This document shows positions 7,619 through 24,726 of a stretch of DNA of 26,774 bases, piece after piece. The translations under genes were made by a program, and so were the position numbers. This stretch comes from a virus, in IMG/VR virus record IMGVR_UViG_3300025446_000032, positions 1 through 26,774 of that record; one strand, given 5' to 3'. A model generated the notes under the pieces. The model had not been told where the DNA came from. It did no database searches and was given only the letters and a program-made list of their open reading frames with translations. Every line of letters starts with the position of its first letter. Position 1 is the first letter of the stretch.

Positions 7619-8305
7619 ATGCCAGCAAACCTTGAACTTCTAGCCGCCAGCCGCGTGATGGTCGACCAGGTGATCGCTCGCGGCCAAGTACCCGTCATGT
7701 TCTTGATGAACCGCGCGACCTCCCAGGCGCTTGCCGAGACATTGGCTGCCGCCTACAGGGAGCGCCAATCAACTTTCTGGCGGCTGTGGCTCAGAATCCG
7801 GCATGGGAAGGTTGCGCCGCGGCTGGAGTCGCTACACGGCATCCCTGTGGCACAGGCCGACTACCTGCCCGACGGCGGCTTATTCCTGCAGGTGGCTGAC
7901 CGAGCCCAAGTGGGACTGCCGGCGGCGCCGGGCGTGCCAACCAGTATGGGACCGCCTGCCGGTATGGAGCAGGCCGCCCAGGATGCTCGGCAGCAGCTCG
8001 CGGCTCGGGGTGAGGAGTTTTGGAAGAAGGATCGCATCCAGGCGCTGAACGATGCGATGGACGGCGTGGCGGGGCCGGGCGAGATCCGGCCAACACTGAA
8101 CGACCTGTCAAGCGGGGGCGGCGCGCGGCCGTCGGCGAGCGATGTGTTGATGAAGGCGATGGAGGACGTGGACGACCTGAACGGCATTGTTGTAGTGCGC
8201 GTGCATCGCAACGGCAACGTAGATCTCTGCCTTAACGTAGATCAGTTCGCCGCCCAAGGGGTTCTCCAGAAGGCGCAGCAGTATTTGTTTATGAAGGGGT
8301 ATTGA
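7619..8305 (+). CDS. Unknown phage protein, 228 aa
   Basis: The ATG at 7619 follows AAAGGAACC, the ribosome-site style used repeatedly in the rightward genes. The N-terminal third is helical with a Trp/Arg-rich segment (FWRLWLRIRHGK), the middle is Gly/Pro/Ala-rich and looks flexible. The C-terminal 60 residues form a compact alpha/beta unit (DVDDLNGIVVVRVHRNGNVD followed by helical sequence). A similar helix-strand-strand-helix pattern is seen in the 77-residue protein at 15850-16083. Its stop shares one base with the methyltransferase ATG (TGATG), so the two are co-translated. No function is recognised. Confidence 0.65.
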   Translation: MPANLELLAASRVMVDQVIARGQVPVMFLMNRATSQALAETLAAAYRERQSTFWRLWLRIRHGKVAPRLESLHGIPVAQADYLPDGGLFLQVADRAQVGLPAAPGVPTSMGPPAGMEQAAQDARQQLAARGEEFWKKDRIQALNDAMDGVAGPGEIRPTLNDLSSGGGARPSASDVLMKAMEDVDDLNGIVVVRVHRNGNVDLCLNVDQFAAQGVLQKAQQYLFMKGY

Positions 8306-10683
8306 TGACGCCCTACTACGAATCCAACGGAGTGACGATCTATCACGGCGATTGCCGGGAGATATTACCACTACTTGAGTTAGTCCACGCGATAATCTGC
8401 GATCCACCTTATGAACTAGGTTTTATGGGAAAAGCATGGGATAAGTCTGGTATTGCCTATGATGTGAAGATGTGGCAAGAGTGCTTGCGTGTACTCAAGC
8501 CCGGTGGCCACCTGCTTTCGTTTGGCGGGAGCCGTACCTATCACCGCATGGCCTGCGCGATCGAGGATGCAGGATTCGAGATCCGCGACCAAATCATGTG
8601 GCTGTACGGATGCCTGGATGAGCAAACAGAACTTGTGTCTGAGAGTGGAGTCAAGCCGTACCATAAAGCAAAAATAGGTGAGCGCGTATTGTGCTACAAT
8701 CCAGAGAACGGCGAGTATTCTTACCAGCCAATCATGGAGATTGTCGAGTATGACTATAGCGATACCGCCTATCGTCTTATCGGAGATTTTGGAGAGCAAG
8801 TCGTCTCCAGAAACCATCGCTGCATTGTTGAACGAGGCGGAAGCGAAGTATTCCAATTTGCCGAAACGATCAGGTCCGAGGCGCGTGTACCCGTTTTGGA
8901 AGGTTTGTCAGAATTGCGGCAAGCCCTTTCCAACCTTCAATCGGACTCAGGCGGCTCGGAACAAATCGTGCAGCCGAGAGTGCACCAATACACTGATTGG
9001 GAAAGGGAACAGCGGTTCGACTTCGCTAAAGAAGAGGAAGGGCAAGATAGTTCCCTGTGTGGTGTGTGGGAAAGAGAAATGGGTTCCCTTGGCGTGGTTG
9101 AAGAAAATCAAGCAAACAGTGTGCAACTACGAGTGCAATGGAGTTCTGAGAGGCACAGCGTGGAAACAACACGCATACAAGGGGAGGAAACACTGGAAAC
9201 CGGAATCGGAGGCTGCGTTGAAGATTCGCATGACGGGTCCGACCAATCCAGCATGGAAGGGGGGTCTGACTTATCGGAAGCGCAAGGGAGCGTATGCCGA
9301 CCAGCCAATAAAGTATGTTCGTTGCCCATCCGAGTTCCTGAGCATGGCGCGGAAGGATGGCTATGTGATGGAACATCGTCTCCTGGTCGCTCAGGTAATT
9401 GGCAGACCTCTCCAGAGAGCCGAAGCTGTTCATCACAGGAATCACAAAGCGAAGGAGAATCAACTAACCAACCTAATGCTGTTTGCGACGAACGCGGAAC
9501 ACAAGGCATACGAGCATGGCGCGGCCATAAAACCTCTTTGGTGCGGGTTGTGCCATTCCAATACACCGGAAAGATGTGGTGTCTGCGTGTATCGACAGGA
9601 GCCTTCGTCGCAGTCCGTGGCGGCGCAGCTTTCCCGACCGGCAATAGCGGATTTCCGAAGTCGCTGGACGTGAGCAAGGCGATTGACAAGGCGGCAGGCG
9701 CGACGCGGCCTGTCGTGGGCGTCAATACGAATGGCAGCGGTCCCAACCTCACCAAACTCGACAATCATGAGGCTGGCGATACTGGCATCGGCTACATGGA
9801 TGGGAGCGGCAAGGTATTCGATGTGACCGCGCCTGCCACTGTGGAAGCCAGGCAGTGGCAGGGTTGGGGCACGGCCCTGAAACCCGCTCACGAGCCTATC
9901 TGTGTAGCCCGCAAGCCCGTCGAGGGCACGGTCGCGGCCAACGTGCTCAAGAATGGCACTGGGGCTTTGAACATCGACGGATGCCGTATAGATGCGACCG
10001 ACGATCTTGTTGAAGATGATGGTCGCAGAGTAGATATGGCGCGTGAGTCAATTGCGGAAGGATACGATAGACCAAACGCAACAATGTTTCGTACAGGTAA
10101 ACCAGCGGTTCGTGGTGGTCCATCAAACCAACTTGGCCGCTGGCCTGCCAATGTCATCCACGACGGCAGCGATGAAGTTCTATCTTGCTTTCCTGAAAGC
10201 AAGGGTCAGCAAGGGGATGTTCGTGGTGATGAACCTTCAGGCGTAACCGACGAGATATATGGAAAATTCAATGGACGAGTTTCTTCTCCTGCAAGACTTG
10301 ACTCCAGCTCAGCCGCCCGTTTCTTTTACACCGCCAAGGCTGACAAAGAAGAGCGCGAGCGCAACTGCTGCGAACTTACCCCCCCCAAAAGGGATGGTTC
10401 TCGAAAGGATGGAAACCCTGGTGGTGACAATCCACGAAACCGAGGCGTTCACGAGCGCATTAACAATCACCCTACCGTCAAGCCTCTGGATTTGATGCGC
10501 TATCTCTGCAAGTTGCTTTGTCCGCCGAGCGGGGGAATCCTTCTGGACCCATTTATGGGAAGTGGAAGCACGCTGATCGCCGGGCGTGGATTCTATCAAC
10601 GTTGCATCGGTATCGAACTCGAAGAGAGGTACTGCGAGATTGCGGCGAAGAGACTGAGCCAACAGGTACTTGGTTTTGAATAG
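8305..10683 (+). CDS. Beta-class DNA methyltransferase interrupted by an intein
   Basis: The N-extein has DPPY at residues 33-36 (catalytic motif IV) followed by the usual LKPGGHLLSFGG region. The C-extein has AHEPICVARKP and, near the end, LLDPFMGSGSTLIAGRGF, the SAM-binding motif. Motif IV before motif I defines the beta class of N4-cytosine or N6-adenine methyltransferases. The extein break is WLYG/SGFPKSLDVSKAIDKA; joined, this restores a sequence common in phage methyltransferases. The intein takes residues 103-447, leaving a host protein of about 447 residues. It probably protects phage DNA from restriction or marks it for regulation. The ATG at 8305 has AAGGGG upstream and overlaps the previous stop. 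The gene ends four bases before a convergent stop. Confidence 0.9.
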   Translation: MTPYYESNGVTIYHGDCREILPLLELVHAIICDPPYELGFMGKAWDKSGIAYDVKMWQECLRVLKPGGHLLSFGGSRTYHRMACAIEDAGFEIRDQIMWLYGCLDEQTELVSESGVKPYHKAKIGERVLCYNPENGEYSYQPIMEIVEYDYSDTAYRLIGDFGEQVVSRNHRCIVERGGSEVFQFAETIRSEARVPVLEGLSELRQALSNLQSDSGGSEQIVQPRVHQYTDWEREQRFDFAKEEEGQDSSLCGVWEREMGSLGVVEENQANSVQLRVQWSSERHSVETTRIQGEETLETGIGGCVEDSHDGSDQSSMEGGSDLSEAQGSVCRPANKVCSLPIRVPEHGAEGWLCDGTSSPGRSGNWQTSPESRSCSSQESQSEGESTNQPNAVCDERGTQGIRAWRGHKTSLVRVVPFQYTGKMWCLRVSTGAFVAVRGGAAFPTGNSGFPKSLDVSKAIDKAAGATRPVVGVNTNGSGPNLTKLDNHEAGDTGIGYMDGSGKVFDVTAPATVEARQWQGWGTALKPAHEPICVARKPVEGTVAANVLKNGTGALNIDGCRIDATDDLVEDDGRRVDMARESIAEGYDRPNATMFRTGKPAVRGGPSNQLGRWPANVIHDGSDEVLSCFPESKGQQGDVRGDEPSGVTDEIYGKFNGRVSSPARLDSSSAARFFYTAKADKEERERNCCELTPPKRDGSRKDGNPGGDNPRNRGVHERINNHPTVKPLDLMRYLCKLLCPPSGGILLDPFMGSGSTLIAGRGFYQRCIGIELEERYCEIAAKRLSQQVLGFE
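8611..9645 (+). other. Intein (345 aa) in the methyltransferase
   Basis: The intein starts at Cys (TGC at 8611) with CLDEQTELVSESG, then KIGERVLCYNPENG, the expected block A; VVSRNHRCIVE about 70 residues on is the TxxH-like block B. The C-terminal part has GKMWCLRVSTGAFVAVRGG, like block F, and ends T-G-N before the +1 Ser of SGFPKS, giving the terminal Asn and nucleophile needed for splicing. The usual penultimate His is Gly, a known variant. Between roughly 8940 and 9545 this frame encodes Ser/Gln/Glu/Gly-rich sequence with no resemblance to an endonuclease; the endonuclease is in the +1 frame. Splicing activity is inferred from the motifs. Confidence 0.88.
8885..9673 (+). CDS. HNH homing endonuclease nested out of frame in the intein
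   Basis: The +1 frame relative to the intein encodes two zinc knuckles, VCQNCGKPF with SCSREC, and PCVVCGKEKW with CNYEC. GPTNPAWKGG follows, then a C-terminal HNH core EHRLLVAQVIGRP with AEAVHHRNHKAKENQLTNL. This is the build of phage HNH homing endonucleases, which cut an intein-less allele to drive intein transfer. The frame is open from 8678, but sequence before about 8880 is a shadow of the intein. The GTG at 8885 is a possible start with GAGG close by at short spacing; TTG at 8858 is an alternative. Homology ends near 9530 and the frame stops at 9673, inside the extein. The start is uncertain, but the coding nature of the core is strong. Confidence 0.75.
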   Translation: MYPFWKVCQNCGKPFPTFNRTQAARNKSCSRECTNTLIGKGNSGSTSLKKRKGKIVPCVVCGKEKWVPLAWLKKIKQTVCNYECNGVLRGTAWKQHAYKGRKHWKPESEAALKIRMTGPTNPAWKGGLTYRKRKGAYADQPIKYVRCPSEFLSMARKDGYVMEHRLLVAQVIGRPLQRAEAVHHRNHKAKENQLTNLMLFATNAEHKAYEHGAAIKPLWCGLCHSNTPERCGVCVYRQEPSSQSVAAQLSRPAIADFRSRWT

Positions 10684-17054: not shown

Positions 17055-17248
17055 TGAGCCCTCCGTGGCTCATACTCCACCGCCCGCTCACGCCAGTCTG
17101 CGCAATGCGCAATCCGAGCATGTTCCTCGTTGTCTTTCGCTACAAGTTTCTCCGCCGTCGCCTGTTTCAACTTAAAGCCGACCACCTGCAACGGCCGCCA
17201 AGTCCGCCCCGCGTCTTCGCTCCGCTCGATAATCCAGATGGAAGTCAT
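17051..17248 (-). CDS. Small phage protein, 65 aa
   Basis: It begins [20 protein letters not shown] with a short basic/helical middle (FKLKQATAEKLVAKDNEEHA) and ends in Arg/Glu-rich sequence. The start shares a base with the methyltransferase C-half stop (TAATG), so it is translated directly after it, and it is joined to the next gene by ATGA. It might act with the methyltransferase, but no evidence beyond position supports that. Confidence 0.6.
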   Translation of the reverse strand: MTSIWIIERSEDAGRTWRPLQVVGFKLKQATAEKLVAKDNEEHARIAHCADWRERAVEYEPRRAQ

Positions 17249-18669
17249 TAGATCACCTCAATCTCATTCAGCAGTGGCGCAGCCTCGCGGATGCGTTTCT
17301 CGGCCATTGCTGCATAGACCGGGTTCAACTCGATTCCAATGAACTCGCGGCCATACCGCAGCGCCACCACGCCGGTTGTACCACTGCCGCTGAAAGGGTC
17401 GAGCACCGTGCCCGCCGGTTCAATCGGGCAGTGACAGGACTTTTCGGCTGGCTTGATGTGCCCATATCCCAACAAGAGGTCCAGCAAATCCGATGGAAGG
17501 GGCCGTGCGCCGGAAAGGTCAGTGCGAATGTAATGGGCGAACGCCGGGCCGCAAAGTGCTGCAATCTTTTCCCGGTTAGGGTGAGTGCGCAGTTGCTCGG
17601 CATATTGCCGCTGCTCATACCGTGTGATCGGGCGCGTTCCTTCGTCGGAACGGCGAGGCCGTGACATGCCAGCGCGTCCGATTTCCAGCGTAGGGTCATC
17701 TATCGGCCCTGACCCGGTGGGAGTTTCAATGACCTCGCAACAGTTGCAACGCTTGCCGGCAGGCGGGCAGCCTGCCAGAATGCACGGCACGATCAACTCT
17801 TCAGGGAAGGTGGCGAAGTGGGCTTCCTTGTACGGCTGTGTGGCGACGGTCCAGACATCACGCTTGTTGCGGGTCTCCCAAGGCACATCGGCAATCTTCA
17901 TCAACCCCGCAGCAGTGCGATGCTCCTCGCTGTCGCTGCCCTCATATTCAGTCACCAATTTATGCGACTTGTTGCCTGCGGTTCGAGGCTTATTGGACGA
18001 CCGGCCAAGCTGATGCTCCGCCGTCTTCCCATTGTTGAACTTGTTGCCTTTGAAACTGCGTGGCTCGCCCCCATGCTGCTGATCTTCTGGCCGTCCGTCT
18101 AATTCCCATGCGCCCTTGCTGGTGTATGGACGCCGCGGATCGCAAGTTGCTGAAGGCTCTTTGATGGCATCGAAATCAAAGTAGTAACGTGGCGACTTGG
18201 TTAATAGAAACAGGTACTCGTGGCTCTTGGTGCAGCGATCGGTGACGCTCTCCGGCATCGGGTTCGGTTTGGCCCAGATAATGTCCTGGCGCAGATACCA
18301 GCCGTCGGCGCGCAGAGCAAAGGCCAGCATCCATGGGATGCCTACTAGGTCTTTAGGTTTAATTGTTTCATGCCGTCCATCTGAGGGGCGTTTGCTCATT
18401 TGAACAGTTCCACCAGATTGAACATAACCTCTTGCTTCAGCGGTTGCTCGTGCCTTACTGCTTCCGTTTTCTCCTTTTCCTCCCCAATAGGAATCTCCGA
18501 TATTAAGCCATAAAGTTCCGTCACTCCGCAGAACTCGTCGCACCTCACGAAAGACCGCAACCATGCGACAGACGTAGCACTCTCCACACTCCGCCGGCTC
18601 AAAAAACTGCTTCAAATCGGCAGGAATTTCATGCTTGCCAACAAGTACATCTCGGCCTAGAATCTTCAT
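17248..18669 (-). CDS. DNA methyltransferase, C-terminal part split off by an HNH gene
   Basis: The 473-residue ORF contains [40 protein letters not shown] and, near the end, [20 protein letters not shown] with [19 protein letters not shown], the SAM-binding motif of beta-class DNA methyltransferases. The catalytic TSPPYW motif is absent and lies in a separate ORF upstream (19207-19665). The two ORFs read in the same frame number, with an antisense HNH gene between them. A CGECYVC pair near the start may bind zinc. The ATG at 18669 has only AGGGG at long spacing, so translation may be weak. A trans-complementing split enzyme is possible, as is loss of function. Confidence 0.8.
18635..18663 (+). 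promoter_or_regulatory. Promoter for the antisense HNH gene
   Basis: TTGCCA (18635-18640) and TAGAAT (18658-18663) are separated by exactly 17 bases. The ATG at 18672 lies nine bases after the -10, so a leaderless or near-leaderless mRNA is expected, and no Shine-Dalgarno site is present. The promoter lies inside the 5-prime end of the methyltransferase C-half, on the opposite strand. Confidence 0.5.
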
Positions 18670-22756: not shown

Positions 22757-22936
22757 ATGAAAGATGCAGCATGGCAGCACCGGCCGGATGTGGCGGACGC
22801 GCAATTCGCCGACCGGCTCACGCACGTACTCAGCACGGCGCCGAACGTTTCCCGCCGCGCGCCCAAACTCTCCACCCTCGACCGGCTGGGCCTGGCTGTC
22901 ATCGTCCTGGCCGTGCTTGTTCTCCTCTACCTCTAA
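22757..22936 (+). CDS. Small tail-anchored membrane protein, 59 aa
   Basis: The product begins MKDAAWQHRPDVADAQFADR and ends with a C-terminal hydrophobic helix (LGLAVIVLAVLVLLYL), so it would be anchored by its C-terminus. GTG at 22751 is an alternative start two codons earlier; neither has a strong ribosome site. It follows another short membrane protein. Function is unknown. Confidence 0.55.
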   Translation: MKDAAWQHRPDVADAQFADRLTHVLSTAPNVSRRAPKLSTLDRLGLAVIVLAVLVLLYL

Positions 22937-22988
22937 CCGTTGCCGGAGCGTAACCGGAAGGCCGCACCAGCGGCAGGAGCTAACAGCC

Positions 22989-24248
22989 ATGAAAACACAA
23001 GAAATCACGAACGCCCAACGACTTACAGCACTGAAGGCGCTACCCTTGCCGGTCGGCGCTCAGTTCTCAATTAAGAACGTGGCGAACGCAAACCACAAGC
23101 CGCACCCCTATACCATCGGGATAGCTTTCCTTTCGAATGAACACATGAAGGCATCGAGCGGCGTTATCGATGGCTCTTTGTGCCGTCGCATCAAATGCGC
23201 TCACCCTGGCTGCTCAGTCTCCTACGATGACCACACCAGCGATATTGTTTGCTTTGTTCAGGTGGCGGCATCGGGCGAACTGAAAGACGTTCCGTTTCTT
23301 CAAGAGTTTTTAGTGTCCATCAAGGACAAGGCTGACGAATTGGGTGTCGTCGGCTTCGCATTCGTTCAGGCTCCGAAAGTCTACGAGCCGAAAGAAAGCG
23401 AGCGCATTACACTACGGAAGACGAAGCCAAGCGCGGAGCCGTCGAAGTTGACCAAACAACAGTACAAGAGCTACGGCCCGCGTCCGGTGGATGGATACGG
23501 CAAAGGCGCGGCAATATGGGCGCACGTTCGTTACGATGACGAATGCGGCAACGGTCACAACACTTTTGCAATTACCGGGACTGTGAGAGTCCCAGGGCAG
23601 AGAGGCGAGGCAGCAGGCGGGTGCCTTCACGATGATTTAGCTCTGGCCTTTCCTGAACTGGCCCCGCTCATCAAGTGGCATTTGTGCGACTCTGACCAGC
23701 CCATGCACTACACAGCAAACGCCATATATCACGCCAGCGACCGCGATTATAGCGGCAGGTTAGCAGGCGAGCCCTGCTCTTTCTCTCATGCCGTGCAGTT
23801 CGGAGATAACCCGATCAAGCACAAAATCAGTAAGAGCTTTTCGACGTTCCTTCAGGAGAACCGGCGCGGTGTCGGTGGCGACTTTGATTTTGAAGTGATC
23901 CGCCTAGACCACGACGGAGGAGAGAAGGAGCGCGACCTGTACGGCCCGAAGTTTACTTTTGGTGGGTACGCTCAGAAGTGGCACGAATGCCCATTCGACA
24001 CAGAGCCAGAGGCGCTAGATTTTCTAAAGGCTCTCCACACTTGCGCGCCGTCTTTCCTCCAGATTCCTACCGCGTGGAGCAAAGGCAAGGCGCGAGACCT
24101 GGACGCGGCCCGCAGTTGTGCAGTATGGCCGGAGGCGACCGACGAGGAACTAACAGCGCCAAGACTGAAAGAGCGGCTAGAAGCGCGGCTCCCCGCCTTG
24201 CTGGTGGAGTTCCGGGCAGCAGTCGAAAGTCTAGGCTTTATCTGGTAG
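22989..24248 (+). CDS. Conserved phage protein of unknown function, 419 aa
   Basis: The ATG at 22989 follows CAGGAG. The N-terminal third has a Cys/His set (CRRIKCAHPGCSVSYDDHTS) that may bind zinc. The middle has GGCLHDDLALAFPELAPLIK with WHLCDSDQPMHYTANAIYHA, a highly characteristic phage pattern I have seen as a hypothetical conserved protein. The end is helical and acidic (TAPRLKERLEARLPALLVEF). His, Asp and Cys clusters suggest a metal-dependent enzyme, but no catalytic assignment is possible. It is the largest protein of the rightward operon and precedes the structured-RNA region by 11 bases. Confidence 0.75.
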   Translation: MKTQEITNAQRLTALKALPLPVGAQFSIKNVANANHKPHPYTIGIAFLSNEHMKASSGVIDGSLCRRIKCAHPGCSVSYDDHTSDIVCFVQVAASGELKDVPFLQEFLVSIKDKADELGVVGFAFVQAPKVYEPKESERITLRKTKPSAEPSKLTKQQYKSYGPRPVDGYGKGAAIWAHVRYDDECGNGHNTFAITGTVRVPGQRGEAAGGCLHDDLALAFPELAPLIKWHLCDSDQPMHYTANAIYHASDRDYSGRLAGEPCSFSHAVQFGDNPIKHKISKSFSTFLQENRRGVGGDFDFEVIRLDHDGGEKERDLYGPKFTFGGYAQKWHECPFDTEPEALDFLKALHTCAPSFLQIPTAWSKGKARDLDAARSCAVWPEATDEELTAPRLKERLEARLPALLVEFRAAVESLGFIW

Positions 24249-24259
24249 AATCCCAGCCC

Positions 24260-24392
24260 GCGACGGTGGGCAGCGCAGGCGGTAGGAGACTTGGGAAAGG
24301 ACTAGCGGCCCCGAGCCTTCAAAGCGGAGGCAACCGAAGTAGCGCCCTACTTGGCCGAGAGGTTTCCTATCGCCTGCCCTGCCCATCTTCGC
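24260..24392 (+). ncRNA. Candidate structured RNA with a 31-position stem
   Basis: The arms 24260-24290 and 24362-24392 pair in register at 29 of 31 positions. The two mismatches are C24264/T24388 and C24274/C24378. Three of the 29 pairs are G.U on the plus strand (24266-24386, 24282-24370, 24288-24364) and would be C/A on the minus strand, so the RNA should be the plus-strand transcript. Inside the stem, 24315-24319/24327-24331 and 24334-24342/24347-24354 form two hairpins, giving a branched fold. It lies in the 226-base gap between two genes of the rightward operon. It does not look like a tRNA, and I recognise no riboswitch class. Confidence 0.5.
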
Positions 24393-24474
24393 CAGTCCAC
24401 GCATAGACCAAACCCAAGCCCGAGGCCGGCGGCGAGCAGTACCGGCCAAGTCCACCAGGACAGGAGCGCAAGAA

Positions 24475-24726
24475 ATGATCTTCCCGACGATCCACTTCAA
24501 CGGCACCAGCAAGCAACAGTTACTCGATGACTATTGCGACGTGAGCCATGCGCTCAATGCCGCAATAGAAAAGATGATCGAGAACGGACCGAACGCCAGA
24601 GACTATTACCCGGCAGGCGACCAGGCGTTCCCGCAGGCCATCAAGGAACACTACGACCGCATCGAGAAGATCCACGCAGTTAAAGCGGAGATCGACCAGA
24701 TCGCCGAACATATCGCCGACGCCTAG
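24475..24726 (+). CDS. Conserved small phage protein, 83 aa
   Basis: It begins MIFPTIHFNGTSKQQLLDDY, with a helical middle, NGPNARDYYPAGDQAF and a final charged helix ending in EIDQIAEHIADA. I recall the same N-G-T-S and N-x-R-D-Y-Y pattern in many phage hypothetical proteins. AGGAG lies eight bases before the ATG at 24475. It is probably cytosolic and helical; role unknown. Confidence 0.7.
   Translation: MIFPTIHFNGTSKQQLLDDYCDVSHALNAAIEKMIENGPNARDYYPAGDQAFPQAIKEHYDRIEKIHAVKAEIDQIAEHIADA

Follow-up and report, generated by a model that had tools for sequence, protein, structure and literature searches.

The hairpin described here is a conserved and probably functional structured element of phage DNA, a view supported by a long stem that is kept in the allele of a distant phage. 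As judged from comparison of phage sequences, it appears to be optional, to sit at the borders of gene cassettes and to travel between phages. We propose tentatively, and with somewhat less than even confidence, that it is an accessory non-coding intercistronic element that is exchanged with gene cassettes and acts in the mRNA of the gene upstream, in its processing or protection. The window, by which we mean the whole stretch of DNA analyzed, is a 26.8-kb virus record (26,774 nucleotides) whose minus strand encodes terminase and portal and whose right end holds a rightward run of small genes. An earlier note on this DNA had placed the hairpin downstream of a 419-residue gene, in a gap of the rightward operon, and this location holds: the gap (24249-24474, 226 nt) separates the 419-residue gene from an 83-residue gene. 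The features that matter for the argument are the following.

22989-24248, plus strand: upstream 419-residue gene, no function assigned; swapped along with the hairpin for a 313-residue methyltransferase gene in L014 (a contig of phage G002, used as the comparison for the gene swap)
24257-24387, plus strand: element shared with a second phage; near-identical over its first ~55 nt and its last ~40 nt, variable inside
24260-24292, plus strand: 5' arm of the long stem, G-rich, unchanged between the two alleles
24293-24304, plus strand: conserved predicted single-stranded stretch GGGAAAGGACTA; the alleles differ at its last base
24306-24357, plus strand: inner multiloop with two hairpins, closing helix CGGCC/GGCCG (24306-24310 with 24353-24357)
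24360-24392, plus strand: 3' arm of the same stem, changed at 9 positions in the other allele
24391-24467, plus strand: 77-nt linker right after the stem, 98.7% (76/77) identical to L014:4612-4688, where no hairpin lies ahead of it
24475-24726, plus strand: downstream 83-residue gene, no function assigned; its counterpart in the second phage is 79% identical as DNA and lies 2.3 kb upstream of that phage's hairpin copy

The longest open reading frame upstream of the gap (22764-24248, 494 aa) overstates the 419-residue gene, whose start is probably the ATG at 22989; the first 75 codons of this frame overlap DNA shared by L014 ahead of its methyltransferase gene. Relatives of the 419-residue gene occur in Providencia, Achromobacter, Pseudomonas and Vibrio phages. 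A 27-nt stretch inside the gene (24050-24076), 74% complementary, was put down to chance. Elsewhere in the window there are two DNA methyltransferase genes (8302-10683, plus strand, and 17248-18669, minus strand; PF01555, phrog_67), and the occurrence of methylase matches on separated parts of both proteins suggests inserted domains. No tRNA or tmRNA was found.

The hairpin is a genuine long RNA-type stem, far beyond chance. Its arms pair at 31 of 33 positions, the two mismatches being C.U at 24264/24388 and C.C at 24274/24378. A recount over the first 31 positions gave 29 pairs, three of them G.U (24266, 24282 and 24288), exactly as the earlier note had reported. In an ungapped stem scan with G.U pairs allowed, the hairpin scored 25, compared to 15.5 for the runner-up stem in the real window and a maximum of 18.5 (mean 14.1, s.d. 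1.4) across 100 dinucleotide-shuffled versions of the whole window. Folded as RNA, the plus strand reaches -77.7 kcal/mol (z -4.36), which 0 of 200 shuffles equalled, and the minus strand of this allele folds more poorly (z -1.6). The two inner hairpins that had been noticed earlier are indeed predicted in the window sequence; their register is not conserved in the homologous allele.

A search with the downstream 83-residue protein led to L013, a contig bearing a second copy of the element at 84% identity. This second allele is located at L013:5378-5518, at L015:3469-3609 and in L016. Over 6.3 kb there is no difference between L013/L018 and L016, and L015, with gene differences, matches them at ~99-100% identity, so these contigs represent one phage type; the comparison comprises only two distinct, independent alleles, that of the window and that of three near-identical contigs of one other phage. 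Between the alleles, a single base differs in the first ~55 nt, the interior is rearranged, for a net difference in length of 9 nt, and the 3' arm carries several changes. Held to the common register, the second allele pairs at 27 of 33 positions (stem score 21), and the helix that closes the multiloop is retained. Of the changes within the core (24264-24292/24360-24388), four turn G-C into G.U or the reverse, one creates a pair and one destroys a pair. The 3'-arm substitutions favour pairing: opposite 24263-24292 they leave it intact at 5 of 7 sites, for which a simulation with the sites held fixed gave P of about 0.005-0.04, varying with the transition share. The covariation that the earlier note had looked to did not appear, as no pair (0) changed on both sides between the alleles, a comparison of little power given only two distinct sequences. 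That note had counted homologues without compensatory changes against a selected RNA, and the second allele is technically such a homologue; yet its one-sided changes mostly preserve pairing.

Rfam 15 yielded no family at either gathering or permissive thresholds, the best match being to a miRNA model on the minus strand (E 0.92). BLAST of the element against phage and plasmid records returned only chance matches of 23-55 nt. Pattern scans of IMG/VR with several conserved stretches recovered the three second-phage contigs as the only true homologues, and a further pattern scan, over bacterial and archaeal genomes, turned up six matches, all by chance. A covariance model built from the two alleles found no further copy among 37 phage records; it found none in a sample of some 1,180 genomes from three phyla either, a result of little weight. 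The sequence family of the hairpin is new, while its kind, an intercistronic hairpin, is ordinary.

That all three wobble pairs are G.U on the plus strand had been taken as a sign of selection on an RNA. This is a weak argument. In the G-rich 5' arm there are 14 G and 6 C, so that any C-to-T change in the C-rich arm opposite inevitably produces G.U; three of three plus-strand G.U pairs are unremarkable. The second allele, in addition, folds better on the minus strand (-77.6 kcal/mol, z -3.8) than on the plus strand (-70.1 kcal/mol, z -3.5), where it has a C.A mismatch, and the strand preference is therefore not conserved. A better case for the plus strand is made by position, since each copy is oriented like the operon and begins 5-9 nt past the stop codon of the upstream gene. 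This upstream gene is unrelated between the two carrier phages.

The terminases of the window phage and the second phage type are 33% identical. Relatives with terminases 72-77% identical have no copy of the hairpin, among them the 55-70 kb contigs G002, G004, G007 and G010, an absence that is not absolute, as these contigs may be incomplete. Distant carriers that share the hairpin while closer relatives lack it argue for horizontal movement, and the distribution seems to follow a pattern of horizontal exchange between phages. It fits the mobile element that the earlier note had listed among its options; no supporting evidence was found for the viral decoy RNA that stood on the same list. Besides the element, only the 83-residue gene was found to be shared as DNA between the window and L018. 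In other phages, relatives of both upstream genes occur with no comparable stem, which argues that the hairpin is optional. Directly behind one relative of the 419-residue gene there is a different hairpin (L009:5502-5620), nested, with a T run resembling that of a terminator and with no relationship in sequence.

The end of the hairpin coincides with the border of a gene swap, with shared DNA on either side. Similarity between the window and L014 extends as far as the ribosome-binding site of the 419-residue gene and resumes at 24391; in between, positions 22989-24390 of the window (the gene and the hairpin) stand against L014:3671-4611, which holds the methyltransferase gene (PF05175). L018 and L015, both of the second phage type, match through the element and part company ~50 nt beyond it, where the next gene starts. 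The 77-nt linker is near-identical in L014 although neighbouring shared genes are about 74-93% identical. The linker begins with the tail of a gene ending in ...PVHA-stop that is located elsewhere in L014; this fossil gene end, CAGTCCACGCATAGAC, recurs at other gene ends in L014, L038 and L074, and is present in G010 too with one mismatch. The frame that runs through the element shares its PVHA ending with an L014 protein, but this tail is in the linker and outside the stem.

It is possible, though on the whole unlikely, that the element acts at the level of DNA, its palindrome or sequence being kept as homology or as a break or recombinase site for cassette exchange, with the RNA fold incidental. 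Its place at cassette borders in both phages speaks for this, as do a near-invariant primary sequence with no compensatory pairs, the lack of a strand that folds consistently better across the two alleles, and an adjacent linker that is shared without the hairpin. Dispersed linkers, however, are unlike an element found once per record (the window itself being a fragment), the co-directional placement of both copies just past a stop codon points elsewhere, and a 30-bp stem is unexplained by recombination alone. The single copy per genome also counts against a miniature-transposon-like element, gene-free and with long imperfect terminal inverted repeats. Inverted-repeat ends and a patchy distribution would suit such an element, but the shared stretch is asymmetrical, reaching further on the 5' than on the 3' side, no target-site duplication is seen flanking it, and a transposase is absent among the window proteins tested, making this origin very improbable.

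It is hardly credible that the element is a short coding sequence, read in the plus-strand frame from GTG 24266, instead of an RNA. Of the six substitutions in flanks that can be aligned, five are at third positions, and the alleles differ in length by a net 9 nt, but the third-position excess is marginal (P of about 0.05 over three frames and 0.11 over six). A ribosome-binding site is absent, the C-terminal ends differ in every context, searches of Pfam and phage proteins gave no match, and the stem would be left unexplained.

We return to the reading that we tentatively favour, action in the message of the upstream gene. Between 24250 and 24480 there is no intrinsic terminator (a G+C-rich hairpin with a U run), the stem being followed by CAGTCCACG, and no promoter signal exceeds chance: one box was found (24223-24251) against 0.6 +/- 1.0 expected, at the end of the upstream gene and with no obvious counterpart in L013. 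With neither a terminator U run nor an above-chance promoter, the hairpin is probably inside a longer message. It would be transcribed within the mRNA of the rightward operon, where a duplex of ~30 bp beside the upstream stop codon could help to process or protect the upstream message, either through double-strand-specific cleavage of the RNase III type or as a barrier against 3'-5' decay. This proposal draws on the anatomy of the hairpin together with general knowledge of phage and bacterial mRNAs. RNase III processing would need a duplex of about 20 bp or more in an RNA that is transcribed; the duplex itself is predicted in both alleles. A swapped-in gene would in this manner bring its own 3' end, and the long conserved sequence might provide homology for further cassette exchange. 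Counting against a role in mRNA are the number of independent alleles, only two and with no double-sided compensatory change between them, the better minus-strand fold of the second and the upstream-gene homologues that have no comparable stem.

The primary sequence appears more conserved than a pure duplex requires, which hints at a sequence-specific partner or at recent transfer, and which would also allow a DNA-level role in recombination. In another reading, the element is a non-coding accessory gene for a trans-acting small RNA or a protein-binding RNA, whose active part would be the conserved loop GGGAAAGGACT. The loop and the 5' arm are near-invariant while the inner part varies, the loop contains GAAAGGA, complementary to the usual anti-Shine-Dalgarno sequence, and horizontal spread would suit such a gene; still, promoter and terminator signals are not above chance and there is no Rfam match, and we consider this rather unlikely. 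That the hairpin represents a new phage-borne family of structured non-coding RNA, targeting RNA or protein of host or phage in trans via this loop, is quite improbable.

Several known systems offer comparisons for an element of the upstream mRNA. RNase III processing hairpins sit between genes of the T7 early mRNA; the window hairpin is likewise a long intercistronic duplex in a polycistronic phage operon, but it is branched, with a longer stem and a conserved loop. REP-type 3'-end hairpins are found in bacterial operons. They share with our element an imperfect palindrome right past the stop codon and possible protection of the mRNA 3' end, whereas the window hairpin is single-copy, has another sequence and resides in a phage genome. 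The known analogue in organization is the T4-type PeSL (promoter-early stem-loops), which PMC4503421 (citing Arbiol 2010 and Comeau 2014) describes as non-coding intergenic stem-loops tied to cassette shuffling. Like PeSL as described there, the hairpin is an intergenic stem-loop at a module border, associated with cassette shuffling between phages. Unlike them, it has no recognizable early (sigma-70-like) promoter and occurs as one copy per record, whereas the promoter and many dispersed copies are defining for PeSL; its stem is also longer and branched, and the phages are unrelated.

The element is a clear example of a non-coding hairpin common to distant phages while most of the surrounding genes are not, and marking the border of a swapped cassette. 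If it acts in mRNA, phage cassettes may bring along 3'-end RNA elements of their own in groups other than T4.
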